Source: Burkholderia metallica
Lineage (GTDB): Bacteria > Pseudomonadota > Gammaproteobacteria > Burkholderiales > Burkholderiaceae
Reading direction: 5' to 3'
DNA: 64,000 bases
Assembly (NCBI RefSeq): GCF_902832845.1
Contig: NZ_CADFDB010000009.1
Span: 62,001-126,000, forward strand
Of the stretch, positions 30,143 to 44,532 are shown in pieces. The stretch's first letter is position 1, and every line of letters starts with the position of its first letter. The position numbers and the translations under genes were made by a program. The notes beneath the pieces are model-generated. The model was not told the DNA's origin. It saw only the letters and a program-made list of their open reading frames with translations, and did no database searches.

Positions 30143-33100
30143 CTAGTAATCCGAATAAAGCCGTACCGGCGTCGGCGTGACGAGCCAGCTGCGCTGCGCG
30201 CGCGCGTCGAACGCGTAGCGCAGATACACGAGCGCCGAACTCGGCGCGTAGTCGTGCGATCGGTCGACGTGCAGTTGCGCGCCGACGCTCAGGTGCGGGT
30301 TCACGCGGTATTCGACGATCCCGTTGACGCCGTACGAGAATGACACGCCGCGCGTCGAACTGCCCGCGTACACGAACCCGGCCGCCACCTGCGCGGCCCG
30401 CTGGTCGGCGGACATCGGGTAATACAGCGAATCCTTTTCATAGCTGTTCGAGATCCCGCCCGTGACGGTCAGGTCCCACGACAGCGCATCGTGCCGCCCC
30501 GCCCATTCGATCGGCACGCCGAGCGACAGGTAGCGCTGCGGGCTGTAGTAGCCGCCCTGCCCGTACGTGTAGTAGCGCAGGTTCTGCGCGTAATGCCACG
30601 CATTGCCGACGAGCCCGGTGCTGACCTTCATCGCCGCGCGCTCGTACACCGGCACCGTGAAGCCCGTGCGCAGCGTGACTTCCGCGTTGCGCTCGACGTT
30701 GCGCCCGGACAGCACGCCCGTGCCGAGTTCCGCGAACAGGTTCGTGCGGCCGACGTCGACCGATGCGCGCAGGTTCACGCCGTCGCGGCGCACGCCGCCC
30801 CAGACCTCGCCCGTCCACGGGTCGCGCATCCCCGCGTACGACAGCACGCTGCTCGTTTCCGGCCGCCGCGACACGTTCACCGAGAACCCGGCCGGGCCCG
30901 CGTCGAAGCGATAGCGCACGCCGCCGACGAGGTAGTGCACGGGAAAACCGAGCGGCGACGTGCCGAGATCGACGCGCCAGGCGTCCGACAGATAGCCGGC
31001 GCCGAGCGCGACGCCCGTCGCCGACTGGTGCAGCGAGCCCGGCGGGTTCGCGATCGACGCGGGCGTCAGCGCGTTCTGCGCGTTCAGCGCCGCGTAGCGG
31101 CCAAACGTATTGAGCACATACGCGTTCGGATTGCTCGTATCGAGCGTGCCCGGGTCGAGATGCACGGTGTCGATCTGCGCGAACACGTGCCCGTCGTAGC
31201 GCACGGGCATCTGCACGTAGATCGGCACCTGCTGCGCGCGATACGACGAGACGCCTTCGTCGCCCGACTTGTACGCGGGCGTCCAGCCGGTCTCGATCTC
31301 GGGATTGCGCCGCTGCGCGAGATCCGCGAACGCGGCCTGCGCGGGCGTCAGGCCGTCGCGGCCGGGGCTCACGCCGCTCGCGCGTTCCTGCGACAGCGAC
31401 AGCCGGTACAGCGACGCCGCGTCGTCGTAGCGGCCCTGGGTCTCGGCCACGCGCCCGGCGGCCACCGTCACGTCGGCGCGCGCCGGATACGCGGCCTGCA
31501 GCCGGTCGGTCACCTGCGCGGCGTCGTCCGGGCGGCGCAGCGCGTTCAGGCGGCGCACGGCCGACAGTTGCGTGTCGACGTCGTCGTCGGGCGTGCGGGC
31601 GAGCACCGCCTGCACGCGCGCGAGCGCGGCCGCACGGTTGCCGCTGTCTTCGTCGATGCGGGCGAGCGCGAGCTGCGTATCGGCGTCTTCCGGCATGCGC
31701 GCGACGACCGGCGCGAGGGCATCGCGCGCGGCGTCGTAACGGCCCTGCGCGCGTTCGAGATCGGCCAGCTCGAGCGCATAGCGCTTGTCCGCGCGGCCGG
31801 CCGGGCTCGCGCCAGCAAGCAGCGTGCGTGCCCGCGCGTAGTCGCGCTGCGCGATCGCGTCGTCCGTCTGCCGCAGCACGAGCCGCAGCGACTGGTCCTC
31901 GATCCTCGCCGTCTGCGCAGGAGTCAGCGACGGTTCGCGGCGCAGCGTGTCGAGCCATGCGACGAGTGCGTCGTCTCGCCCCGCGCTGCCGAGCAGGTCG
32001 CCGTAGCGCAGCCGCACATCGGTATCGGCTTCGCGCGGATGCGCGGCGATCCAGTCGCGCAACGGCGCGAGGCCGCTGTCCGGTTCGCCCGCGTCGATCC
32101 ACTGCGCGCCGATCGCGGCGAGCATGTCGGGATCGTCCGGCGCACTCGCCTGCGCGTGCGCGAGCGACGCGGCAAAGGCCGCGCGATCGCCGCGCGCGAG
32201 CGTGCCGCGTGCATCGGCCAGCGCGTGTTCGGCATCGAGCTTGCGCGCGAGCGCGCGCATCCCGTCCGAGCGGTGCGCGTCGTCGACGGGCGCGAGCGCG
32301 GCCTGCGCGCCCGCGACGTCGTCGATCGAATTGCGGTACAACGCGGTCGCGTAGCGCATTTCGGGCGTATCGCCTTGCGCAAGCCCGTCGTCCATCACCG
32401 TGCGGCCGAGTTGGCGCAGCCCCATGTCGCGATAGAGGCGCGCGAGCGCGAAGCGCGTCCACGGTGCGTCGGGCGCCGCCCGCACGGCGGCTTCGTAGCG
32501 CTGCGCGGCCGCGCCACGGGCGCCCTGGTCCGCAAGCGCGCGCGCCTGGTCCGCGAGCACGCCGGCGCGCAGGCCGTCGAGCGCGCGCCGATCGTCGCGG
32601 CCCGTCACGCGGCCTTGCAGCGCGTCGAGCAGCGGGCCGATCTTGTCCGCGCGGCCGGTGCGCTCATACAGGGTGGCCGTGTCGCGCACGGCCGCGAGGT
32701 CCGGCGAACGCCGGGCCAGCAGTTCGCGCAGTAACGGCTCCGCGCGCGCCCAGTCGCGCTGCGCGAGCAACGCATCGGCCAGCTGAAGTTTCGCGTCCGG
32801 GCTGTCCGGCTGCAGCGCGAGCGCCGCGCGGGCCGCGCGTTCCTCGTCCTGCGCACGGCCCGCCGCGGCGGCCGCGCGGCCTTGCGCGAGCAGCCCCCAG
32901 AACTGCGCGGTGCGCGCGAGGCCCTGCCATTTGCCGCGCTGGTCGGCCGACAGCGTCGCGGCGCGCGCGAACAGCGCGCGCGCCTCGTCGTGCCGGCCTT
33001 CGCGCAGCCGCAGCAGGCCGAGCCCGCCGACCGCGTCGGCGTCGTCCGCCCGCGCCCGAGCGGCGCGCGCAAGCAGCGGATCGGCGCCGGCCAGGTCGCC

Positions 33101-34033
33101 GCGCGCAAGCGCCCGCAGGCCGCGCTGCTGCGCAATGTAGTCGGGATTGCGTTCGAGCTGGCGCTGTGCGTCGCGCTGGCGATCCAGTGCCGCGGCGCGG
33201 TCGACGAATTCGGTATCGTCCGGTACGAGCGCGAGATACGCATGCAGCGCATCGAGATACGCGGGATCGCTGCCGGCCGACTGCAGCACGCGCCGCCACA
33301 ACGCCATCGCGTCCGTATGGTCGGCGTCGGTGCGCTTCGCGAGCGCCCACGCGATCCGGTTCGCCTCCGGACGCGTGTCGGCGCGCTGGTTCAGCAGCCG
33401 CGCGAGCGCCATCGCCGCACTCGTGTCGCGCGGATCGGCCGCGACCGCGCGGCGCAGCGCGGCGACCGCCGGCTCGCGGCCGCCCGGCGCATTCGACACG
33501 ATCTGGTAATACTCGGCGCCGAGCGCGCCCGACGGCGCGCCGTTCGGAAACAGCGCGACGATCCGCCGGGCCGCCTCGTCGGCGCGGCCGCTGCGCGCGA
33601 GCAGGCGGATCTGCGCCATCTCGCCGCGCCCGCTCGTCGCGACGCGGTATTCGTCCGCCACCCGGCGCGTGGCGGGCGCCGTGGGCGACTGCGCCTGCAG
33701 ACGCGCGAGCGACGCCTGCGCGCCTTGCGCGTCGCCGAGCCGCAACAGCACACGCACCTGCTCGGCCAGCAGCCCGGGGTCTCCCGGCGCGATCAGCAGC
33801 CCCTTGCGCAGCGCATCGCGCGCGAGGTCGTCGCGATGCTTGACGCCCCACATCCGCGCGGTGTCGAGCAGGCGCTGCGCGTCGGCGGACGCGGCGGTCG
33901 CGGGCGTCGCCGACGTCGCGGGGTTCGCCTTCGCCGCCTCCGGCACGGTGCCCGGCGCCGCCGCGCACACCGACGACGCGAGCCACGCGAATCCCGCGAC
34001 GTGCGGCGCGGCGCGCTTCAGCGGGCGGCGCAT
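30143..34033 (-). CDS. bcsC: Cellulose export outer-membrane protein BcsC
   Basis: A 1296-residue exported protein. A signal peptide (to about residue 25) is followed by TPR-type helical repeats over roughly residues 45-900, visible as many A-rich repeats with LARxLxxQGD-like units, and a C-terminal beta-barrel of about 330 residues. It forms the periplasmic scaffold and outer-membrane pore for the cellulose chain. The start at 34033 lies 16 bases inside the end of bcsZ and gives a proper signal peptide. Length is somewhat above the E. coli protein. Confidence 0.94.
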   Translation of the reverse strand: MRRPLKRAAPHVAGFAWLASSVCAAAPGTVPEAAKANPATSATPATAASADAQRLLDTARMWGVKHRDDLARDALRKGLLIAPGDPGLLAEQVRVLLRLGDAQGAQASLARLQAQSPTAPATRRVADEYRVATSGRGEMAQIRLLARSGRADEAARRIVALFPNGAPSGALGAEYYQIVSNAPGGREPAVAALRRAVAADPRDTSAAMALARLLNQRADTRPEANRIAWALAKRTDADHTDAMALWRRVLQSAGSDPAYLDALHAYLALVPDDTEFVDRAAALDRQRDAQRQLERNPDYIAQQRGLRALARGDLAGADPLLARAARARADDADAVGGLGLLRLREGRHDEARALFARAATLSADQRGKWQGLARTAQFWGLLAQGRAAAAAGRAQDEERAARAALALQPDSPDAKLQLADALLAQRDWARAEPLLRELLARRSPDLAAVRDTATLYERTGRADKIGPLLDALQGRVTGRDDRRALDGLRAGVLADQARALADQGARGAAAQRYEAAVRAAPDAPWTRFALARLYRDMGLRQLGRTVMDDGLAQGDTPEMRYATALYRNSIDDVAGAQAALAPVDDAHRSDGMRALARKLDAEHALADARGTLARGDRAAFAASLAHAQASAPDDPDMLAAIGAQWIDAGEPDSGLAPLRDWIAAHPREADTDVRLRYGDLLGSAGRDDALVAWLDTLRREPSLTPAQTARIEDQSLRLVLRQTDDAIAQRDYARARTLLAGASPAGRADKRYALELADLERAQGRYDAARDALAPVVARMPEDADTQLALARIDEDSGNRAAALARVQAVLARTPDDDVDTQLSAVRRLNALRRPDDAAQVTDRLQAAYPARADVTVAAGRVAETQGRYDDAASLYRLSLSQERASGVSPGRDGLTPAQAAFADLAQRRNPEIETGWTPAYKSGDEGVSSYRAQQVPIYVQMPVRYDGHVFAQIDTVHLDPGTLDTSNPNAYVLNTFGRYAALNAQNALTPASIANPPGSLHQSATGVALGAGYLSDAWRVDLGTSPLGFPVHYLVGGVRYRFDAGPAGFSVNVSRRPETSSVLSYAGMRDPWTGEVWGGVRRDGVNLRASVDVGRTNLFAELGTGVLSGRNVERNAEVTLRTGFTVPVYERAAMKVSTGLVGNAWHYAQNLRYYTYGQGGYYSPQRYLSLGVPIEWAGRHDALSWDLTVTGGISNSYEKDSLYYPMSADQRAAQVAAGFVYAGSSTRGVSFSYGVNGIVEYRVNPHLSVGAQLHVDRSHDYAPSSALVYLRYAFDARAQRSWLVTPTPVRLYSDY

Positions 34034-35247
34034 GCACGGCCTCCCCAGCGGGGGTCGAGCGTGCCGTCCGCGCCGAACCGGTAGCGGCCGTCGCGCCAGC
34101 CGAGCCCGAACAGCGTCAGCACGCTCGTGTAGTAACCGGGCGCCGACTGGCGCGCGAGCGTATCGACGCGCGCCGCCTGCGCGTCCGCGAGCGCGCGCTG
34201 CCCGCGTGCGTCGAGGAACGGCACGGCCGCCGCCGAGAACCCGCCGTTGCCGTCGTTCGGCCCGGCGACGCCCGTCGTCGTATCGACCTTTTCCGGCGGC
34301 GCGCCATGCTCGGCGATGTAATCGGCGAACGGCGCAAAACGGGCGAGCAGCGGCGCGGCGAGCGGATCGGCGCGATCGAGCATGCCGGCCCACAGATACA
34401 CGCGGATCGCGTTGTACGCGCTCTCCGCACGGGTGTCGCGATCGGGACCGAAACCCGTGCCCGCGCGATACAGCGCCCAGTCGGGCGAAAAGCCTTTCGG
34501 CGCGGTGTCGAGCAGCACGCGCCCGGTACTGGCGGCGAGCGCGGCCCAGCGCCGGTCGTCGGGCAGCCGCGCGCCGAGCGCGCGGATCACCTGCGGCGGC
34601 GAATAGCTCGGATTCACGCGCCACTGCCCGTCGGCGAGCTTGAAGCCCGTCGGCCCGGGCAGCAGCGTGAGGCCGAGGCCCGGCACGCTCGCCGTCTCGT
34701 CGTCGAGCACGCGCTTCGCGAGCAGCGCGCCGCGCGCCGTGTAGCTGCGCTCGTGCCACAGCCGCCCGGCCTCGACGAGCGCATAGGCGATCCACAGGTC
34801 GGCATCCGACGCCGCGTTCGCATCGAGCACGCGCCACGCGCCGTCGGGCGCGCGGCCCCACAGCCACGCCGGCAGATGCGCGCTCAGGTCGCCCTGTGCG
34901 AGATTGTTCTCGGTCCATGCGAGGATCGTGTCGAACGTGCGCCGGTCGTTCGCGACCAGCGCGAAGAAAAGTCCATACGCCTGCCCCTCCGAGACCGTGC
35001 GCGAATCGGCCGAGCCGACGTCGATCACGCGGCCGTCGGCCGAGATGAAATCGCGCTTGAACGCGTCCCAGCGCGGCCATGCCGCGCCGCATCCCGCGTC
35101 GGCCGCACCGGTCGCACCCGCTCCTGCAGCCTGCGCGCGCGCGGCCATGCCGGCCGCCGCGCACGTGAACGCCGCCGCCATCGCGAGTACCGCGCCGACG
35201 CGCCGCGCCGGCCGCATTGCCCGTCGCTTCGCCATTGCCCGCGCCAT
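34018..35247 (-). CDS. bcsZ: Periplasmic cellulase BcsZ (GH8)
   Basis: A 409-residue glycoside hydrolase family 8 endoglucanase with an Arg-rich N-terminus and a signal peptide to about residue 40. The catalytic acid is probably Glu87 in VSEGQAYGLFFAL. Other family blocks are LPAWLWGR, DADLWIAYAL, NPSYSPPQ and ESAYNAIRVYLWAG. BcsZ trims cellulose in the periplasm and tunes polymer amount. It starts four bases before the end region of bcsB and overlaps bcsC by 16 bases. Confidence 0.95.
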   Translation of the reverse strand: MARAMAKRRAMRPARRVGAVLAMAAAFTCAAAGMAARAQAAGAGATGAADAGCGAAWPRWDAFKRDFISADGRVIDVGSADSRTVSEGQAYGLFFALVANDRRTFDTILAWTENNLAQGDLSAHLPAWLWGRAPDGAWRVLDANAASDADLWIAYALVEAGRLWHERSYTARGALLAKRVLDDETASVPGLGLTLLPGPTGFKLADGQWRVNPSYSPPQVIRALGARLPDDRRWAALAASTGRVLLDTAPKGFSPDWALYRAGTGFGPDRDTRAESAYNAIRVYLWAGMLDRADPLAAPLLARFAPFADYIAEHGAPPEKVDTTTGVAGPNDGNGGFSAAAVPFLDARGQRALADAQAARVDTLARQSAPGYYTSVLTLFGLGWRDGRYRFGADGTLDPRWGGRACAAR

Positions 35248-35250
35248 CCG

Positions 35251-37590
35251 TTACATCCCCCGTCGGCGCGCGGCGATGCGCTGCAGCACGCTGAACACGC
35301 CGAGCGCGAGCAGCAGCCCCGCGACGACGCCGACCGCGCCGAGCACGACCGGATGCCGCGCCGCGTGCGTCCAGACGCGCGCATACCACGGCACGAAGCC
35401 GACCACGTAAGGCTCGCCGACGCGCAGGCTGTCGACCTGCCCCGGCCGCACCAGCGCGAGGTCGCCCTGCAGTTGCGACACGAGCCCCGCGTTCTCGAAC
35501 ACGTCGAGCAGATCGCCGAGGCGCGGCGGGTCGGTCGCAGTCAGCGCGACGACGCTGCGCCCGTGGCTACCCGGCAGCTCGAACCCGGCGAGCGCCGCGA
35601 GCGGGCCCGTCTGCTCGATGTGCGCGCCGCCGTCGGCCAGCCCGACGCCGTTGCGCCAGCGCTCCTTCACCGAGAACGCGACGCGCGCGGCGCCGGCACC
35701 GCCCGCGCTGCCCTGTTCGCCGATCACGAGCGGCAGCGCCGCGCGCCAGTGCGCGAGCAGCGGCGACGCGGGCGAGCCGTCGATCACGAGCAGATCCTTG
35801 CTGCCCGACAGCGCGGCGACGTCGCCGGGCCGCGCGACCTGCACACGCAGCGCCGGGAAGCCGGTCCATTCGCCCATGTGACCGAGCATCGTCAGATAGG
35901 CCTCGAGCTCCTGCCGCGACGGCCGCTCGGGCATCACGACAGCCGTCTGCGACAGGTCGGCGAAGCGCGTGAACGGGAAGCCGCTGTTCGCGAAGAACGC
36001 GAGGTTCGGCAGTTGGGCGTAATGGACGAAATGCGAGAAGTCGATGGTCGAATCGGGATCGATCGCCGCGCGCTGCGGCTCGGTCGCGGTGCTCGAACAG
36101 AGGCCCGTCTTCTGCGAGTCGAGCGTGAAGCGGAACTGCAGCTGGTTGCCGCTGCCGACCCGGAACGCCGGGATGTCGACGTCGCTCGTCACGCGCCCTT
36201 CGGGCACCGACAGCAGCGGCAGCTGCATGCGGCCTCGCGCGTCCTCGGCATGGGCCGGCCCGAGCCGGTACGACTTCACGAGCTGGTCGTTGATCTCGAC
36301 GGCGAGCGTCGAGTTGTCCTGCACCGTCGGCGCCGTGTAGCGGTAGCGCAGCGTGATCGGCACGCCCGCGCCGTTCCACGAATGCAGATCGGACGGGACG
36401 CGCAGGTTCAGGCGGATCGCGTCGGGCGACGTGCCGCGCACTTCCAGCTCGCGCGTATCGGACACGAGCTCGCGGAACGCGATCGGCCGGTTCACCGGCA
36501 GCCAGCGCGGCGCGTCGTACGGCTTGCGCGGCGCGCCGAGATCGACGTGCGCGACCGTCGCCGCCGGCCCCGACAGCGCCACGCGGCCCAGCACGAGCGT
36601 CGCGACCGCGTCGTCGACCTCGGCCGCCGTGCGGCCCGTGACGACGAGCAGCTTGCGCCCGGGCGCCGCGGGGTTGTCGGTCATCGCGAGCAGCGGGCCG
36701 TTGATCGACGGCAGCGCGAGGCCGGCCGGCAGGGTCGCCACCGTGCCGATCACCACCGCCTGGTCGTCGGCCGGCAGCCCGGACGACACCGGAAAGCGCG
36801 CGTGCCGGTAGTCGGCCAGTGCGCCGAACCACGACGCGAGCACGCCCGCACTGCGCAGCGTCGCCGAATCGGGCGACGCCGGCAGCACGAACGGCAGCCG
36901 CACGCGGCCGTTGTCGCGCCGGTCGAAGAACGGCGCGGGCAACAGCGCAAGATCGTTCGGCAGGCGCACCGGCGATTCGTCGAGGATCAGCTCGCTCTTC
37001 GGGCTCACGTCGGCCCACAGCGCGGAATTCGCCGGGTCCTCGCAATGGTCGAGCGTGTAGTGCGCGATCAGCCGCAGCCCGATCTGGTTGAAATCCGAGA
37101 AGTAGCGCGGATCGATCGGGATCTCCTGCGTGACCGTGCGGCCCGCCTGCGCGGCGTCGAACGGAACGGTCGCGATGACCTCCCCGTTCACCGACACCTT
37201 CAGGTGCGACATCGGGAACACCAGCGACGGCGAATACGCGTAGGTCAGGCGCAGCCGCGCGCCGGTGACCACCCGGTCGAGCCGCACGCCCGCGTTGATC
37301 GTGCGCGCGTCGTCGGCGCCGCGCAGGCGCAGCGGATCGAACGCGCCGAGCGACGCAAACGGCACGCGCACCGTCGTCGACGGCAGGCCGGCCGCGGCCG
37401 CGGCCGCGCTGGCCGCGGCAGGCGTGGCCGTGAGCACCGACGCCGAAGCCAATGTCGGCGCAGCGCCGGACGCGGCAGCAGCCGCACCGGTAGCCGGCAC
37501 GGCCGGGATCGGCGCGGCCGACAGCGCGGCCGCGTGAAACGCGCCGACCAGCGCGCCCGACAGGACGAGCAGCGAGACGGCCGGCTTCAT
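35251..37590 (-). CDS. bcsB: Cellulose synthase periplasmic subunit BcsB
   Basis: A 779-residue membrane-anchored periplasmic protein that guides cellulose from BcsA. A signal peptide is at the N-terminus and one membrane helix near residues 745-770 (VVLGAVGVVAGLLLALGVF) closes it; BcsB binds BcsA through this helix. The body has paired carbohydrate-binding and flavodoxin-like domains, including FPMSHLKVSVNGEVI and DLHSWNGAGVPITLRYR. It is the first gene of the operon, with a long AT-rich leader upstream. Confidence 0.95.
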   Translation of the reverse strand: MKPAVSLLVLSGALVGAFHAAALSAAPIPAVPATGAAAAASGAAPTLASASVLTATPAAASAAAAAAGLPSTTVRVPFASLGAFDPLRLRGADDARTINAGVRLDRVVTGARLRLTYAYSPSLVFPMSHLKVSVNGEVIATVPFDAAQAGRTVTQEIPIDPRYFSDFNQIGLRLIAHYTLDHCEDPANSALWADVSPKSELILDESPVRLPNDLALLPAPFFDRRDNGRVRLPFVLPASPDSATLRSAGVLASWFGALADYRHARFPVSSGLPADDQAVVIGTVATLPAGLALPSINGPLLAMTDNPAAPGRKLLVVTGRTAAEVDDAVATLVLGRVALSGPAATVAHVDLGAPRKPYDAPRWLPVNRPIAFRELVSDTRELEVRGTSPDAIRLNLRVPSDLHSWNGAGVPITLRYRYTAPTVQDNSTLAVEINDQLVKSYRLGPAHAEDARGRMQLPLLSVPEGRVTSDVDIPAFRVGSGNQLQFRFTLDSQKTGLCSSTATEPQRAAIDPDSTIDFSHFVHYAQLPNLAFFANSGFPFTRFADLSQTAVVMPERPSRQELEAYLTMLGHMGEWTGFPALRVQVARPGDVAALSGSKDLLVIDGSPASPLLAHWRAALPLVIGEQGSAGGAGAARVAFSVKERWRNGVGLADGGAHIEQTGPLAALAGFELPGSHGRSVVALTATDPPRLGDLLDVFENAGLVSQLQGDLALVRPGQVDSLRVGEPYVVGFVPWYARVWTHAARHPVVLGAVGVVAGLLLALGVFSVLQRIAARRRGM

Positions 37591-38162: not shown

Positions 38163-38612
38163 CTAGCCGACCTGCGGCACCGCGATCGCGATCCCGACGA
38201 CCAGCCACTGCACGATCGCAACGAGCACCCCGGCGCGGCACAGCCCGACCGCCCCGCGCACGCGCGCGTCGAGCGCGCGTGCGGCCTTCGATGCGTCGAT
38301 CCAGCCGAGATCGGCGAGCGCGCGGTCGAGCGCCGCGAGCCCGTCGTCGACCGATGCGCCGCCTGCCGCCGTGCGCGCAAGCGCGGCGAACAGCCGGCGG
38401 TCGATCTCGATCCGCACCGCGTACCACAGCGCCGCGATCCCCGACCCGGTGCTGACGACGGCCAGCAGCACGCGCGCGATCGTCGGCGCCCAGCCCGACG
38501 CGATCCACCAGCCGGCACCGGCCGCCGCCAGCGCGGCCGCGATCGCCCACGCGCCCGCATCGAGCGCGCCGCGCGCGGCGGCAATCCGGAACGGCGCGGA
38601 CGGATCGCGCAT
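38163..38612 (-). CDS. Small integral membrane protein of the YnbD-linked group
   Basis: A 149-residue protein with three hydrophobic segments (about AGAWAIAAALAAAGAGWWIA, ARVLLAVVSTGSGIAALWYA, LVAIVQWLVVGIAIAV) and a soluble helical stretch between the second and third. I do not recognise a named family. Its ATG shares one base with the stop of the PAP2-phosphatase gene (TGATG), so it is translated with that operon and probably works in the same membrane pathway. Confidence 0.7.
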   Translation of the reverse strand: MRDPSAPFRIAAARGALDAGAWAIAAALAAAGAGWWIASGWAPTIARVLLAVVSTGSGIAALWYAVRIEIDRRLFAALARTAAGGASVDDGLAALDRALADLGWIDASKAARALDARVRGAVGLCRAGVLVAIVQWLVVGIAIAVPQVG

Positions 38613-40024
38613 CACACGCGTCCCACGCCGCCGCGGCGATCGATCCATTGCTGCAGCACGGCCACGCCGTCGTCCGACCACACCGCATGCGGCCGTACCG
38701 CGCGCACCGCGGCCAGCGCGTCGCGCGCATCGCCGAGCCCGCGCCGCATCGCCAGCCACGCGGCCGCGCACAGCACGCTGCGCCCGTAACCGAGTGCGCA
38801 GCAGACCAGCACGTCGCGCCCTTCTCCGTGCAGGCGTTCGAGCGCCGCGACGGCCTGCGCGAGCTGGGCGGCCGTCGGCGCGACGAGGTCGAGCTGCGGC
38901 ACGCCCGCATACGCGAGCGACGCCTCGGCCGCGGCCCAGCGAGGCATCTCGGCGGTCAGGTCGACCAGCGCGGTGAAGCCGTGGCGCCGGATCTCGCGCG
39001 TCGTCGGCGTACGGCCGATCGACACGCGTTCACCGATCCTTACGGGCGCCGGCTGCCGGAACGTCCACAGTCGCGAATTGACGAACGCGCCGGCGATCGT
39101 CGGCGCGAGCAGCCAGCGGATGAACACCGGAAACCGGCCCTGCGCATCCTTCTGGAATGCGCCGGGATTGCCACGCCGGTAGGCCCATGCGACGCACGCG
39201 AGCGCCAGCGCGATCCAGCCTGCCGCCAGCGCCCAGCCCTGCGCGCGCGGCACGCTCCACACGGCCGCCCACGCCATCAGCGCGGCGCCGAGCGCATAGC
39301 GGCGCGCGAGCGCGCGGCCGGCCGCGCCCGGCGACGCGTCGGCGCCCGGCAGCCGGCCCGCGGCGTCGCGCAGCGGAAACAGGAACAGCGCGAGACAGCC
39401 GACGGCCGCCCCGGTCGGCACGTCGATCGCGTGATGCTGATAGGTGGTCAGCACCGACACGCCGATGGCCGCGAACCACAGGTGCAGCACGACGCGCGCG
39501 AGCGTGCCGCGCACATGCTTCGCATAGACGGCCCACAGCACGACCAGCAACCCGATGTGCAGCGACGGCGCCTGGTTGAACGGCTTGTCGAAGCCCATCA
39601 GCAGCGTGAACAGCGCACCGGCCGCGCCGCCCGCGTCGGGCCGCTCGAACCCGAAGCGCAGCGGCCACGCGATGAAGCACGCGACCGATATCAGTTGCAC
39701 GGTCAACAGCCGCTTCACGTGATCGAGCAGGTCGGCACGGCGAGTCCAGAAGAAGAACGACAGCGCATACAGCAGGTCGATCGACCAGTACGGCACGATC
39801 GTCCACGGGACGAACGGAATCGCGTGCTCCCAGCCGAACGCGAAGGTCGGCACCGCCGCGCGGCGTGCCGCGAGCCAGTTCGCGAAGCCGTAGGTCGAGA
39901 AGAACACGGCGCCCATCACGGCGAGCCAGCCGACGCGCAGCGCGAACGACGCGTGGCGCGCGCCGGCGCCGGCCGCCGGGGCCGATTCGGCGAGGTCGCG
40001 CGCGCCGCCGCCGAGCGCGCTCAT
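38612..40024 (-). CDS. PAP2 phosphatase fused to dual-specificity phosphatase (YnbD-like)
   Basis: A 470-residue two-part enzyme. The first 300 residues hold about six to eight membrane helices with PAP2 motifs KPFNQAPSLHIG and TTYQHHAID. The last 150 residues are a dual-specificity/tyrosine phosphatase domain; its P-loop is VCCALGYGRSV, where the usual His before the catalytic Cys is Cys. The same fusion occurs in E. coli YnbD. PAP2 enzymes dephosphorylate lipid phosphates, and DUSP relatives include the mitochondrial phosphatidylglycerophosphate phosphatase PTPMT1, so two successive lipid dephosphorylations are plausible. It overlaps the upstream gene in ATGA. Confidence 0.88.
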   Translation of the reverse strand: MSALGGGARDLAESAPAAGAGARHASFALRVGWLAVMGAVFFSTYGFANWLAARRAAVPTFAFGWEHAIPFVPWTIVPYWSIDLLYALSFFFWTRRADLLDHVKRLLTVQLISVACFIAWPLRFGFERPDAGGAAGALFTLLMGFDKPFNQAPSLHIGLLVVLWAVYAKHVRGTLARVVLHLWFAAIGVSVLTTYQHHAIDVPTGAAVGCLALFLFPLRDAAGRLPGADASPGAAGRALARRYALGAALMAWAAVWSVPRAQGWALAAGWIALALACVAWAYRRGNPGAFQKDAQGRFPVFIRWLLAPTIAGAFVNSRLWTFRQPAPVRIGERVSIGRTPTTREIRRHGFTALVDLTAEMPRWAAAEASLAYAGVPQLDLVAPTAAQLAQAVAALERLHGEGRDVLVCCALGYGRSVLCAAAWLAMRRGLGDARDALAAVRAVRPHAVWSDDGVAVLQQWIDRRGGVGRV

Positions 40025-41790
40025 GACGCGTCGACCCGCTGCGCGAGGCTGACCGTGAAGATGCCCATGTCGTCGATCCGCTGGTCGAGCTTGCGAAAGC
40101 CCGCGCGCGCGACGAGCTCGTCCATCTCGGCCTGCGAGCGGCGGCGCATCACCCAGGTCGCCTCGCCGCGGTGGTTGTTCAGCGCACGCGCGATGAATTC
40201 GAGCTGCGGATGCCACGGCTGCCCCGTATAGACCAGATAGCCGCCCGGCGGCACCGCCTGCGCGAGCCCGCGCAGCGAGCGCTCGATCAGCGCGTTCTCG
40301 CCGAACAGCTCGTAGAGACCCGACACGATCGCGAGCGTCGGCCGCGGCTCGAGCGCCGCGAGCGACGCGTCGTCGAACGCGTCGCCGCGCTCGAAGCGCG
40401 CGATCGGTTCGAGCCCGCGCTGCGCGATCAGCACGCGTCCGGCCTCGACGTTCGGCGGGCTGTAGTCGCGCAGCACGATGTCGTCGGGCGCCGCGCCGTC
40501 GCGCTCGGCGGCCGATGCGATCGCGTCGAGCACGTAGCGCCCGTGGCCGGCCGCGATGTCGACGATCCGCACCGGCGCGCCGCTGCCGCGCAGGCGGCGG
40601 ATCGCCGCGCCGATCAGTTCCTGCAGATGCACCTTGCGCTGGCGGATGCCGACCCAGCCCGGCGAATCGAGATAGGTGCGGTCGATCAGCGCGCCGATAC
40701 CGAGCCGCCCCTGCGCGCGGTTGCGGTACACGTAGTCGAGCGTCGAGCCCGAATCGAAGCCGAGCCGCAGCCCGAGCGCGATGCCGTCCGACAGCGCGCC
40801 GCCCGCCTTCAGGCCGGCTCGCGTGAGCGCCCAGTACGCACGCGCGAACACGTTCGACGGCGGCCGGCCGAGCGCCGCGTACTCGTCGTGGAACGCGCCG
40901 CGCCGGTCGGCGTCGGCGAGCGACACGCGCGGGCCAGGCGCATCGAATTCGCGCAGCACGAACGCACGCAGCGGCGCGAGCGCCTGTGCGCGATCGCGTT
41001 CGCCGAGCGTGTCGTGATAGAAGCCCGGCAGCACGATGCGCTCCTTGCGCGCCGCGCCGAGCCGTTCGAAGAAGCGGTCCTGCGGGCCGCGATGCACGAC
41101 CCAGTCGGCACCCGAGATCAGCAGTTGCGTCGGCACCGTGATCGCGGCCGCATCGGCGACGATCCGCCGCGCGGTGTCGTGCAGGTCGAGCAGCATGTTG
41201 ACCGCGATCGGCCGCGTGATCAGCGGATCGGACGCGTAGCTCGCGATCCGCTCGGGATCGTGCGTGAGGAATTTCGGCTTCACGTAGCTGTTCACGTAGA
41301 ACAGCCCGCGCAGCTTGTGCATCAGCCGCAGGCCCGGCCGCGCGAACGGCACGTAGAGCTTGATGTGGAACGCGGGCGACGCGACGACGAGCGCGCGGAT
41401 CGGCGGCGCATAGTCGTGCGCCCAGGTGGCCGCGAGCACCGCGCCGACGCTCTGGCCGACCACGGCGATGTCCTCGATCGCGATGCCGTGCGTGTCGCGG
41501 ATATGCTCGACGAAGGTCTGCAGGTCGCGCACCGAAGCGGCCGCGCTCGGGCTGTAGCCGCGCGCGCCCGGCGAGCGGCCGTGACCGCGCGCGTCCCATG
41601 CGAAGAATGCGAAATCGGGCAGGTCGAGCTCGTCGACGAGATGCGCGACGCGCGCCGAATGTTCGTGGCCGCGATGCAGCAGCACGATGGCGCCGCGGCA
41701 GTGCGCGCCCGTTGCGGGCCAGTGGCGATAGAACAGCGTTTCGCCGTCGTGCGTGATGAAGTCGGCCTCGCGTGCCGTGCGTGCGCTCAT
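40021..41790 (-). CDS. Alpha/beta hydrolase-methyltransferase fusion (YnbC-like)
   Basis: A 589-residue protein with two catalytic parts. Residues 1-290 are a lysophospholipase-type hydrolase with nucleophile Ser114 in VVGQSVGAV and the FFAWDARGHGRSPG block. The second part, from about residue 380, is a class I SAM-dependent methyltransferase with glycine motif VRIVDIAAGHGRYVLDAI. E. coli YnbC has the same pairing. It could cut an acyl chain from, and methylate, a lipid intermediate. It sits between the CDP-alcohol transferase and the PAP2-DUSP gene, overlapping the latter by four bases. Confidence 0.88.
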   Translation of the reverse strand: MSARTAREADFITHDGETLFYRHWPATGAHCRGAIVLLHRGHEHSARVAHLVDELDLPDFAFFAWDARGHGRSPGARGYSPSAAASVRDLQTFVEHIRDTHGIAIEDIAVVGQSVGAVLAATWAHDYAPPIRALVVASPAFHIKLYVPFARPGLRLMHKLRGLFYVNSYVKPKFLTHDPERIASYASDPLITRPIAVNMLLDLHDTARRIVADAAAITVPTQLLISGADWVVHRGPQDRFFERLGAARKERIVLPGFYHDTLGERDRAQALAPLRAFVLREFDAPGPRVSLADADRRGAFHDEYAALGRPPSNVFARAYWALTRAGLKAGGALSDGIALGLRLGFDSGSTLDYVYRNRAQGRLGIGALIDRTYLDSPGWVGIRQRKVHLQELIGAAIRRLRGSGAPVRIVDIAAGHGRYVLDAIASAAERDGAAPDDIVLRDYSPPNVEAGRVLIAQRGLEPIARFERGDAFDDASLAALEPRPTLAIVSGLYELFGENALIERSLRGLAQAVPPGGYLVYTGQPWHPQLEFIARALNNHRGEATWVMRRRSQAEMDELVARAGFRKLDQRIDDMGIFTVSLAQRVDAS

Positions 41791-41870
41791 GCGATCTCTC
41801 TCGTTTCGTTATTCGAATCCCGGTGCGCCGCCCTCCGGCGCCCGCTACGCCACCGCGCCGAACGGCGTGT

Positions 41871-42476
41871 TCAACCGCCCTTTTCCGCGATGCCGGCCTG
41901 TACGCGCCGCACCACCGTCACGATCGACAGCACGATCAGCAGGCGCCACAGCCACGCGGCCACGTCGCCGACCGGCAACCCGAGCCCGATCCACAGCGCG
42001 AACGCGCCGAGGGCGAGCGCGCGATCGCTCTTGCCGAACGGGCCGTCGTAGCGGCGGCTCACGCCGACCAGCGGGCCGATCAGCCCCGCGCATTCGACGA
42101 TCACCGCCGTCAGCGCGAACAGCCAGACGTCCGCCGGCGCGAACGCCGGGACCGCGAGAAACGGCAGCACGAGCGCGATGTCGGACACGACGTCGCCGAG
42201 TTCGTTCAGGTAAGCGCCGAGCGTGCTCTTCTGGTCGTGCTCGCGCGCGAGCATCCCGTCGATCGCGTTGAGCGCCATCCGCGCGAACAGCCACAGCGGG
42301 ATCAGCAGGAACAGCGCGCGGGCAAATACGCCGAGGCCGGCGAGCGCGCCGACGACGATCGAGCCGCCGGCCGCGAACAGCGTGACCTGGTTGGCCGTGA
42401 CGCCGCGCTCGGCAAGCGCGTTCGCGAACGGGCGCAGACGGTTCTGGAATTTCGGTTTGAGTGCGTAGAGGCTCAT
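41871..42476 (-). CDS. CDP-alcohol phosphatidyltransferase, YnbA-like variant
   Basis: A 201-residue inner-membrane enzyme of the CDP-alcohol phosphatidyltransferase family, which joins CDP-diacylglycerol to a polar alcohol. The family motif is DxxDGxxAR...GxxxDxxxD. Here it reads N70AID73GMLAR ... G87AYLN91ELGD95: the first and third aspartates are asparagine. The codons (AAC both times) are unambiguous. About six membrane helices follow the pattern. Length and N-terminus (MSLYALKPKFQNRLRP) resemble E. coli YnbA. It leads the minus-strand half of a divergent cluster and lies 80 bases before the YnbC-like gene. Confidence 0.88.
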   Translation of the reverse strand: MSLYALKPKFQNRLRPFANALAERGVTANQVTLFAAGGSIVVGALAGLGVFARALFLLIPLWLFARMALNAIDGMLAREHDQKSTLGAYLNELGDVVSDIALVLPFLAVPAFAPADVWLFALTAVIVECAGLIGPLVGVSRRYDGPFGKSDRALALGAFALWIGLGLPVGDVAAWLWRLLIVLSIVTVVRRVQAGIAEKGG

Positions 42477-42932
42477 CGTTCTATTTGTACGGCACGGTCG
42501 GATACGTTTGCCGCCGCCATGCCCCGGGCGGCGAAACGGCCCTGGACGGCCTTCCAGGGACGGCCCTCATCGTCGCCGAGCGGCCCCGATGCGTCAAGCA
42601 CGCGCGCGGGCCGCCCGCGCGGCGCCAATCTGGCGTTTTTGACGGAAACTCGCGATAATCCGCTGGCCCGATCGCAGCGAGATCCATTCGAACTGCAAAC
42701 GGGCACTCGTGCAACAGCCGAATATCACGCCGCCGTCCGGCTCATTCGCCGCGACGCATCAGCGTGAGACGGCAAATCGTCCGATTATCGCGGACCTGCG
42801 ACAGGCAGCCACGAATTTGAAAAAATTTAAACAAGGGCCGTCCGGCGCGCATCCTGCCGCGCCGGCATTCCGGGGCTCCACCCGCCGCTCACGCGCAGCG
42901 GGCCATGCAGGCAGGCAGGAGGCGCAGCGCCG
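42477..42932. other. Divergent promoter region of the Ynb-like cluster
   Basis: A spacer of 456 bases between the YnbA-like gene and the acyltransferase gene. It includes AT-rich patches, such as TTTGAAAAAATTTAAACAA near 42820, that could carry a promoter for the plus-strand pair. No sure promoter boxes and no protein-like frame were seen. Confidence 0.55.
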
Positions 42933-43565
42933 ATGAACATCCTCAACATCTGGCAGCGCGATTTCCTGCTGTCCATCGTGCGGCTCGTCGCCGGCGCGTA
43001 TCCGGTCTGGCATCAGGCGCCGCCATCGCCGACGCAGAAGATCTACTTCTCGAACCATACGAGCCACATCGACACGCTCGCGATCCTCGCCGCGCTGCCG
43101 CGCAACGTGCGCGCGGTCGTGCGGCCGGTCGCCGCGCGCGACTACTGGGACAGCAGCGACATGAAGCGCCACATCGCGCAAAAGCTGCTAAACGTCGTGC
43201 TGATCGACCGTCACCGTGAATCGGGCGGCGATCCGCTCGACCCGGTGCGCGACGCGCTCAAGCAGGGCCATTCGATCATCATCTTCCCGGAAGGCACGCG
43301 CGGCGCGGAGATCCTGCCGCAGCCGTTCAAGAGCGGGCTGTTCCACCTCGCGACCGAGTTTCCGGACGTCGCACTCGCGCCCGTCTATCTCGAGAACCTG
43401 CAACGGATCATGCCGAAGGGCGCGATCTGGCCGGTGCCGCTGATCTGCAAGGTGCACTTCGGCGCGAACGAAGCGCTCGGCGCCCAGGAAGACAAGCCGA
43501 CCTTCCTCGCCCGCATGCGCGACGCAGTCGTCGCGCTCGCGCCGCCGCAGCGGCCGGCCGGCTGA
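42933..43565 (+). CDS. PlsC-like 1-acylglycerol-3-phosphate acyltransferase
   Basis: A 210-residue acyltransferase of the PlsC family. The HX4D catalytic motif is in NHTSHIDTL (His42, Asp47) and the substrate motif FPEGTRG lies about 70 residues later. There is only a weak N-terminal hydrophobic segment. PlsC enzymes make phosphatidic acid, the precursor of CDP-diacylglycerol. AGGAGG lies upstream of the start. It is followed by the CdsA-like gene after 37 bases and opposes the YnbA-like gene; E. coli ynbABCD has no acyltransferase inside it, so this is an added step. Confidence 0.88.
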   Translation: MNILNIWQRDFLLSIVRLVAGAYPVWHQAPPSPTQKIYFSNHTSHIDTLAILAALPRNVRAVVRPVAARDYWDSSDMKRHIAQKLLNVVLIDRHRESGGDPLDPVRDALKQGHSIIIFPEGTRGAEILPQPFKSGLFHLATEFPDVALAPVYLENLQRIMPKGAIWPVPLICKVHFGANEALGAQEDKPTFLARMRDAVVALAPPQRPAG

Positions 43566-43602
43566 ACGCGGCGCCCTCTTCTCCCTTTCCGGATATCAAG
43601 AA

Positions 43603-44532
43603 ATGCGAACAATTTTCTGGGAACTGGTCGCGGGCGTCACGGGCGTGCTCGTCGTCGCGACCGTGATCGGCGCGATCCTCGGCGCGCGCAGCGGCGGCAC
43701 GAGCGCGACCATCGTCAACCTGAACCAGCGCATCCGCGCATGGTGGGCGATGATCGCGATCATGGCCGTCGCGATCGGCCTCGGCAACAACGTCACGTAT
43801 CTGGTGTTCGCGCTGCTGTCGTACCTGACGCTGCGCGAATTCATCACGCTGACGCCCACCACCGCGAGCGACCATACGACGCTCTTCATCGCGTTCTTCA
43901 TCGCGATCCCCGTGCAGTACCTGCTGCTCGGGATCAACTGGTACGGGATGTATTCGATCTTCGTGCCCGTGCACCTGTTCTTCGCGATGTCGCTCGTGTC
44001 GGCGCTCACGCAGGACACGCGCGACTTCCTGAGCCGCAACGCGAAGATCAACTGGGCGTTGATGGTGTGCGTGTACGGGCTGAGCCATGCGCCGGCCGTG
44101 CTGATCCTCGACATTCCGCACTACACCGGGCAGAACGCGCTGCTGCTGTTCTTCTTCCTGGTCGTCGTGCAGATCAGCGACGTGCTGCAGTACGTGGTCG
44201 GCAAGCTGTTCGGCAAGCGCAAGATCGCGCCGCAGCTATCGCCATCGAAGACGATCGAGGGCTTCATCGGCGGCGGCCTGCTCGCCACGCTGTGCGGCGC
44301 ATCGCTTTATCGCGTGACGCCGTTCTCGTTCGGCGCCGCGTTCGGGATCTCGCTCGCGATCGTGATCGCGGGCTTCGTCGGCGGGCTCGTACTGTCGGCC
44401 GTCAAGCGTTCGCTCGGCACGAAGGACTGGGGCTCGATGATCGCGGGCCACGGCGGGATGCTCGATCGCGTCGACTCGATCTGCTTCGCCGCGCCGGTGT
44501 TCTTCCACCTCGTGCGGTATCTGTACGTGTGA
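43603..44532 (+). CDS. Phosphatidate cytidylyltransferase, CdsA/YnbB-like
   Basis: A 309-residue inner-membrane enzyme with about eight helices that makes CDP-diacylglycerol from CTP and phosphatidic acid. The signature near the C-terminus is SAVKRSLGTKDWGSMIAGHGG followed by MLDRVDS. The earlier block SDVLQYVVGKLFGKRKIAP carries the SDV nucleotide-site residues. It supplies the substrate for the adjacent CDP-alcohol transferase. E. coli YnbB is of similar size. It ends at a hairpin and converges on a secreted-protein gene. Confidence 0.9.
   Translation: MRTIFWELVAGVTGVLVVATVIGAILGARSGGTSATIVNLNQRIRAWWAMIAIMAVAIGLGNNVTYLVFALLSYLTLREFITLTPTTASDHTTLFIAFFIAIPVQYLLLGINWYGMYSIFVPVHLFFAMSLVSALTQDTRDFLSRNAKINWALMVCVYGLSHAPAVLILDIPHYTGQNALLLFFFLVVVQISDVLQYVVGKLFGKRKIAPQLSPSKTIEGFIGGGLLATLCGASLYRVTPFSFGAAFGISLAIVIAGFVGGLVLSAVKRSLGTKDWGSMIAGHGGMLDRVDSICFAAPVFFHLVRYLYV

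Follow-up and report, generated by a model that had tools for sequence, protein, structure and literature searches.

A conserved ynb-type gene set in Burkholderia metallica, predicted to make and remodel a minor phospholipid, encodes a CDP-alcohol phosphotransferase homologue with an altered metal-binding motif

The nearest described counterparts of the gene set reported here are the ynbABCD operon of Escherichia coli K-12 (b1408-b1411) and the CDP-alcohol phosphotransferases. The set lies in a 64,000-nucleotide stretch of Burkholderia metallica (contig NZ_CADFDB010000009.1, positions 62,001 to 126,000), called the window below, and comprises homologues of YnbA, YnbB, YnbC and YnbD (A to D in gene orders), a PlsC-like acyltransferase and a small membrane protein, here TM3 (Table 1). 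Work on E. coli YnbB is said to have been published by Sato et al. in 2019, a study that we know only through a citing review. In the portion available of a paper on the glycolipid MPIase, overproduction of YnbB raises MPIase, its knockout brings no significant change in MPIase, and YnbB cannot complement the loss of cdsA (PMC6362211). According to a review, likewise available in part, YnbB makes CDP-diacylglycerol in vitro and restores MPIase in CdsA-depleted cells (PMC7018664). In the accessible text of a transposon screen, insertions were depleted in five envelope genes, ynbB among them, when the strain made only phosphoglyceride-linked enterobacterial common antigen, for which its authors state that ynbB is not needed (PMC8609368). 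Other extracts list ynbC as one table row of mutated and differently expressed genes in a persistence study (PMC13313352), and ynbA as a single gene down-regulated after plutonium exposure (PMC10134817) and as one among many transposon matches in a cyclic di-GMP screen (PMC13031359); the available part of the Lipocone paper (PMC12419801) does not mention Ynb. A search of the open-access literature, where absence is weak evidence, gave no lipid made by the set as a whole. A preliminary description of the locus had held the product to be undescribed in any species; this stands for the set as a whole, with the qualification that in the extracts cited E. coli YnbB makes CDP-diacylglycerol in vitro and supports MPIase when overproduced (PMC6362211, PMC7018664).

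Homologues of all four Ynb proteins are linked at this one place, as first described, and near full length the window proteins share 46% (YnbA), 37% (YnbB), 57% (YnbC) and 39% (YnbD) identity with those of E. coli K-12 MG1655. Their sizes are also close, as first described: 201 and 201 aa for YnbA in the window and in K-12, 309 and 298 aa for YnbB, 589 and 585 aa for YnbC, and 470 and 430 aa for YnbD. The division into two divergent operons was confirmed. Outward from the intergenic region, A-C-D-TM3 are read on the minus strand and PlsC-B on the plus strand, the two units being 456 bp apart. The D and C frames overlap by 4 bases and TM3 and D by 1 base, with gaps of 80 bp between C and A and 37 bp between PlsC and B. 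The YnbA-like and YnbC-like genes are each present in a single full-length copy in the genome, YnbC having two further weak partial matches. The closest named relatives by YnbC (97%) are Burkholderia aenigmatica, lata, arboris and cenocepacia, all members of the cepacia complex.

Linkage was scored with cleaned profiles, above 25 bits for the short TM3 and above 50 bits for the other genes, in two samples. The first holds the 80 closest of 318 YnbC relatives in named genomes and is biased to Burkholderiaceae and Pseudomonas. The second was taken from 398 genomes drawn evenly from one phylum, which may overlap the first sample in species; 27 of these, including that of the window, carry PF12147 (the YnbC genomes below), and the 26 others were fetched with flanks. 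With the window and E. coli this gives 108 loci. All six families occur together in 74/80 loci of the first sample and 22/26 of the second, far above chance, and the scatter in relatives that would have counted against a dedicated lipid pathway was not seen, which supports that part of the preliminary description. The incomplete loci of the first sample are five at contig ends (L008, L025, L057, L067 and L072) and one without most of D (L032); in the second sample, L135 and L136 have no PlsC or B nearby and an inverted A, L141 has A and C only, and L142 lacks D and TM3.

A single operon, A-C-D-TM3-PlsC-B, is the arrangement at 61 of the 108 loci. PlsC-B is reversed in front, with all six genes present, in 35 including the window, and three more loci with divergent PlsC-B have one gene missing (L008, L025 and L032). 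The divergent split was found only in Burkholderia, Paraburkholderia and Trinickia, with one further genome of the same genus. The module is real, conserved and uncharacterised; its six-gene form is common, and the version in the window is a rearrangement of that form in Burkholderiaceae. Only E. coli has the order A-B-C-D, which is thus peculiar to it and does not characterise the set at large. Locus L085 of the first sample is catalogued under Myxococcota, and the set therefore extends beyond a single phylum. In two Acetobacteraceae loci (L056, 8843-11740; L072, 1260-4394), the YnbA and YnbC homologues share one open frame, a fusion that ties the transferase to the hydrolase-methyltransferase. 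Genes that are split or mostly lost were also observed (D in L032 and L028, C in L069, A and B in L147), which may reflect a dispensable set or assembly errors. In one 2.1-Mb genome, a 720-aa WG-repeat frame lies between C and D (L139, 9199-11358).

Searching with a YnbA profile (alignment A3, E up to 1e-20) extended the picture to 37 of the 398 genomes, covering all 27 with YnbC. Summed over these 37, the window's own genome included, YnbA is linked to B in 33, to PlsC in 32, to C in 27 and to D in 25. In the ten YnbA genomes without YnbC, A, B and PlsC stand side by side in eight; the exceptions have pieces of A and B without PlsC (L147) or a lone divergent A (L155), and a linked D or TM3 was found in none of the ten. 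The core of the set is A+B+PlsC, and the acyltransferase is not an extra. Its description as an addition to the Ynb genes has to be given up, since PlsC is linked to YnbA more often than C or D and E. coli represents the form without it. A related membrane protein follows PlsC in three of the eight trio loci (L152, 10192-10716; L153, 861-1397; L154, 6442-6963); for the copy in L153 the VTT domain scores 29 bits, short of the cut-off of 33.9. A role as a lipid-moving partner is imaginable.

The most surprising result is the metal-binding site of YnbA. CDP-alcohol phosphotransferases carry the signature D-x2-DG-x2-AR-x8-G-x3-D-x3-D, with four aspartates, and the available text of a study of MjPSS, an archaeal phosphatidylserine synthase, describes two metal ions coordinated by the motif residues, with every motif mutation strongly cutting or abolishing activity and partial rescue of D41S (first Asp), D62S and D66N by extra Mg (PMC8633023). 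The window YnbA reads N70-x2-DG-x2-AR-x8-G-x3-N91-x3-D95, retaining D73 and D95 and departing from the four-Asp signature. Alignment with AF2299 and phosphatidylinositol-phosphate (PIP) synthase places N70 at the first motif Asp and N91 at the third. The three other CDP-alcohol transferases of the same genome are canonical, with Asp at motif places one, three and four. The Asn/Asn pair was found in 115 of 116 YnbA-like proteins, E. coli among them: 80/80 in the first sample (79 of its 80 loci plus E. coli, L057 having no A), 26/26 in the second and 9/10 in the genomes without YnbC. In the sole exception, L155, the motif pattern was not matched anywhere. N70, N91 and the neighbouring E92 are invariant across 24 aligned YnbA proteins, as are D73, G74, A77, R78, G87 and D95. 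This invariance suggests a re-tuned active site rather than drift or decay; it does not by itself imply activity, and catalysis is a prediction. The "transfer to an alcohol" of the preliminary description is only provisional, because two of the four aspartates of the signature are missing from the YnbA-like proteins.

We tentatively suggest, with a probability well short of even, that the YnbA-like proteins form a separate catalytic branch of the CDP-alcohol phosphotransferases, perhaps with a one-metal site aided by the invariant Glu92, and that the set makes an undescribed class of methylated phospholipid in many Pseudomonadota, including E. coli. The same Asn pair at the first and third motif positions would also suit a pseudoenzyme or a CDP-diacylglycerol-binding regulator, in a set that adds no new head group but senses or turns over CDP-diacylglycerol and lysolipids, as a cycle of repair and remodelling. 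The lipase and the acyltransferase do suggest a deacylation-reacylation cycle. We nevertheless consider this unlikely, because the invariant motif residues point to re-tuning and not decay, and because a dedicated CDP-diacylglycerol synthase is hard to account for without a consumer.

Among curated models, YnbA is nearest to archaetidylinositol-phosphate and phosphatidylinositol-phosphate synthases, far under the cut-off (71 bits against 180), and its nearest solved relatives are PIP synthase 6h53 and AF2299. YnbD matches DSPc at 47.5 bits and PAP2_3 below threshold, with the PAP2 motifs PSLH (153-156) and HxxxD (197-201) and the dual-specificity phosphatase (DSP) motif C409-x5-R415. PAP2_3 is the family that covers Aur1. 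Taken together, these matches could describe synthesis of phosphatidylinositol or of a lipid like inositol-phosphorylceramide, with YnbA as PIP synthase, the DSP domain as phosphatase and an Aur1-like PAP2_3 domain as phosphoinositol transferase. For all 24 aligned YnbA homologues, models of inositol-phosphate lipid synthases give matches, and these have the best E-values; PAP2_3 matches 17 of 24 YnbD homologues, and PTPMT1 with phosphatidylinositol 5-phosphate is the top structural match of the DSP half, though tied with other dual-specificity phosphatases. The generic PAP2 model, however, also matches 17/24, the window YnbA stays far from the model cut-off, and the Asn/Asn motif fits poorly with a PIP synthase. 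Moreover, inositol-1-phosphate synthase (PF01658) was not found in the window's own genome, though inositol might be taken up instead, and occurs in only 2/27 YnbC genomes (G123 and G274) and 4/37 YnbA genomes (these and G103 and G262); nor was it found in E. coli, one of 14 controls. The inositol reading is weakened by these results, and we regard it as very unlikely.

The YnbB-like protein belongs to CTP_transf_1. The CdsA-type C-terminal signature is S-x-x-KR-x4-KD...HGG-x-x-DR-x-D, and the window protein has it as SAVKR (265), KDWG (274) and GHGGMLDRVD (282). NHxxHxD and FPEGTR are the motifs of PlsC-type 1-acylglycerol-3-phosphate acyltransferases; both are present in the Acyltransferase-family protein of the window, their residues being invariant in 13 aligned sequences except T122. 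Against the curated 1-acylglycerol-3-phosphate acyltransferase subfamily it scores 50 bits, with a cut-off of 103, and its substrate is a prediction. The enzyme classes match PlsC-CdsA-PgsA-Pgp, the housekeeping phosphatidylglycerol pathway, and the set could in principle back up that branch of phospholipid synthesis. This is the least probable of the readings weighed here: YnbA is distant from PgsA (17 bits), the set is patchily spread (37/398 genomes), the hydrolase-methyltransferase is left unexplained, and E. coli YnbB was unable to replace CdsA in the portion available of that study (PMC6362211). A second CdsA-like frame elsewhere in the genome is a partial YnbB paralogue (41% over residues 180-300); with the three canonical CDP-alcohol transferases, its presence means that the bulk lipids need not depend on the set, which favours the dedicated pathway set out below.

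In YnbC, Methyltransf_20 scores 450 bits and Hydrolase_4 238 bits. The hydrolase half has the fold of a monoacylglycerol lipase, with a Ser-Asp-His triad at S114, D229 and H259. The methyltransferase half has an S-adenosylmethionine-binding motif around 411-418, and its nearest solved relatives are weak (E 0.0035). The structure-search matches listed for YnbC fall in the hydrolase half and those listed for YnbD in the DSP half, a result that excludes no methyltransferase or PAP2 family. Across the aligned sets, C, D and PlsC all keep their catalytic residues without variation, a sign of selection for activity. Neither Pfam nor NCBIfam has a family that matches TM3 at E 0.01, but a homologue above 25 bits was found at 76/80 related loci, and the invariant columns of TM3 in 11 aligned sequences include R67, D71, D96, G103, R112 and R117. 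TM3 is a membrane protein, as first described; the three helices given to it are not firm, a simple hydropathy scan showing two segments above threshold (44-68 and 120-149) and no third.

The published work on YnbB raises another alternative, namely that YnbB, with YnbA, builds the GlcNAc-pyrophosphate-diacylglycerol anchor of an MPIase-type glycolipid that the rest of the set services. The closeness of YnbA to enzymes that use phosphorylated polyols would agree with this. WecF is the Fuc4NAc transferase of the enterobacterial glycan, and MPIase requires it. WecF (PF07429) is present in only 2/27 YnbC genomes (G296 and G391) and 3/37 YnbA genomes (these and G370), and is absent from the window's own genome. 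Since the usual neighbours of YnbB are the other genes of the set, in genomes mostly without WecF, there is reason to doubt that YnbB is dedicated to MPIase. Within the available texts, the E. coli evidence for such a role is the rise of MPIase on overproduction (PMC6362211), its restoration in CdsA-depleted cells (PMC7018664) and the depletion of ynbB insertions in the strain with only phosphoglyceride-linked enterobacterial common antigen (PMC8609368). In the trees, though, E. coli YnbA and YnbB both pair with their counterparts from the A-B-PlsC genome G370 (100/100 for YnbA, 100/99 for YnbB), while the window YnbB falls in another, 47-member clade (96/96) with the six-gene loci and L142, L147, L148 and L149. 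In the YnbB tree, long-branch warnings attach to the E. coli row and to the split containing the window, and L056 has an aberrant branch whose placement is meaningless. The trees and the absence of PlsC indicate that E. coli ynbABCD is atypical, and what has been found for E. coli YnbB may not hold unaltered for the window. An MPIase role is weakened, and in our judgement quite unlikely.

We give about an even chance to a reading in which the set is a dedicated synthesis and remodelling module for a minor phospholipid, predicted from the protein families and made apart from the bulk membrane lipids. We are moderately confident that the set makes a lipid of its own, and have little confidence in any particular head group. 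The families and the A+B+PlsC core suggest that PlsC and YnbB supply CDP-diacylglycerol to YnbA: the PlsC-like enzyme would make or remake phosphatidic acid, and the YnbB-like enzyme would convert it to CDP-diacylglycerol. YnbA, PIP-synthase-like with its altered metal site, would move the phosphatidyl group to a small acceptor of the polyol or sugar-phosphate type, not generally inositol. The PIP and archaetidylinositol-phosphate synthases to which YnbA is nearest use phosphorylated polyols as acceptors, and PTPMT1, which the DSP domain resembles as closely as it does other dual-specificity phosphatases, dephosphorylates a lipid (phosphatidylglycerophosphate). In genomes that also have C, D and TM3, the phosphatase domain of YnbD may strip phosphate from the product and the PAP2 domain may exchange or release the head group at the outer face, while the lipase half of YnbC may trim an acyl chain, the methyltransferase half methylate the product, and PlsC re-acylate it. 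Gene identity, conserved catalytic residues, linkage, the core and the Asn/Asn substitution are observed; the substrates, the sequence of reactions, the side of the membrane and any activity of YnbA are all inferred from them.

Several observations weigh against such a pathway. YnbA lacks two of the four motif aspartates, and in the part of the MjPSS study at hand the D62N change (third Asp) causes loss of activity with negligible or impossible reactivation by Mg (PMC8633023). The window YnbA scores marginally below the CDP-OH_P_transf cut-off (PF01066; 21.5 bits against 22, or 22.4 with neighbours in frame). B and PlsC are unlinked in 3/26 sampled loci (L135, L136 and L141). Linked YnbD is missing from L141 and L142 as well as from the ten YnbA genomes without YnbC; a dedicated linked phosphatase is therefore not required everywhere, which weakens the case for a phosphorylated acceptor. 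In the extract available, growth of the E. coli ynbB knockout equals that of its parent (PMC6362211). Finally, ynbABCD is polymorphic within E. coli: the operon (L004, 3622-8202) has matches in 4579 of 5426 complete genomes and at least 80% of it lies in one place in 4242, leaving 1184 with no such place. A transposase was also seen inside ynbABCD in one of five listed E. coli strains.

Should the pathway exist, even E. coli K-12 would contain a membrane lipid that has so far escaped notice. The question is testable there, as K-12 carries the operon and, from the accessible portion of the report, a ynbB deletion strain exists (PMC6362211). The Asn/Asn site, if active, would probe how much change the two-metal mechanism can tolerate in the CDP-alcohol phosphotransferases.

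Table 1. Features of the ynb-type gene set, in window coordinates.
Feature	Position	Strand	Description
TM3	38163-38612	-	149-aa membrane protein; final gene of the minus-strand unit
YnbD-like	38612-40024	-	N-terminal PAP2-type membrane phosphatase/phosphotransferase domain and dual-specificity phosphatase domain
YnbC-like	40021-41790	-	Monoacylglycerol-lipase-type hydrolase fused to Methyltransf_20 S-adenosylmethionine methyltransferase
YnbA-like	41871-42476	-	CDP-alcohol phosphotransferase homologue with altered motif (Asn70/Asn91)
Divergent intergenic region	42477-42932		Holds the inverted pair GCGATAATC
PlsC-like acyltransferase	42933-43565	+	PF01553, 57.6 bits; NHxxHxD at 41-47, FPEGTR at 118-123
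YnbB-like CDP-diacylglycerol synthase homologue	43603-44532	+	PF01148, 210 bits; CdsA-type C-terminal signature

The two copies of GCGATAATC in the intergenic region (42652-42660 on the plus strand, 42783-42791 on the minus strand) are the only ones in the 64-kb window; two copies somewhere in the window arose in 11 of 100 shuffles. The pair is present in 23/37 Burkholderiaceae loci with the divergent arrangement and possibly marks a shared control region, with overlapping divergent promoters or an operator. Scans of 42300-43000 for promoter and terminator consensus sequences, sigma-70 included, gave no match. Cellulose-synthesis-like genes adjoin the set at 30143-37590 and are putatively BcsC-, BcsZ- and BcsB-like. 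A functional link to cellulose was considered and rejected: bcsB or bcsZ homologues adjoin 25 of 106 loci (the 80 and 26 sampled, each with limited flank), all in Burkholderia or in the one further genome of the same genus, which makes this lineage synteny and not function.

Among known systems, E. coli ynbABCD resembles the set in all four proteins, homologous near full length, and its YnbA has the same Asn/Asn pair; it differs in lying on one strand in the order A-B-C-D, and no PlsC or TM3 match was found in the 12 kb around it. The A-C-D-TM3-PlsC-B operon of Cupriavidus, Pseudomonas, Lysobacteraceae, Reyranella and others, for which no name was found in the open-access literature, has the same six genes as the window in a single unit, whereas the window has PlsC-B in front and in the opposite direction. 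MPIase biosynthesis through CdsA and YnbB shares the YnbB homologue and differs in WecF, which is missing from 25/27 YnbC genomes. Finally, the CDP-alcohol phosphotransferases (PIP synthase 6h53, AF2299 4o6m and phosphatidylserine synthase) resemble YnbA in sequence across profile residues 9-194 and in the DG..AR core, and the YnbA-like proteins are set apart from them by asparagine at the first and third motif aspartates.

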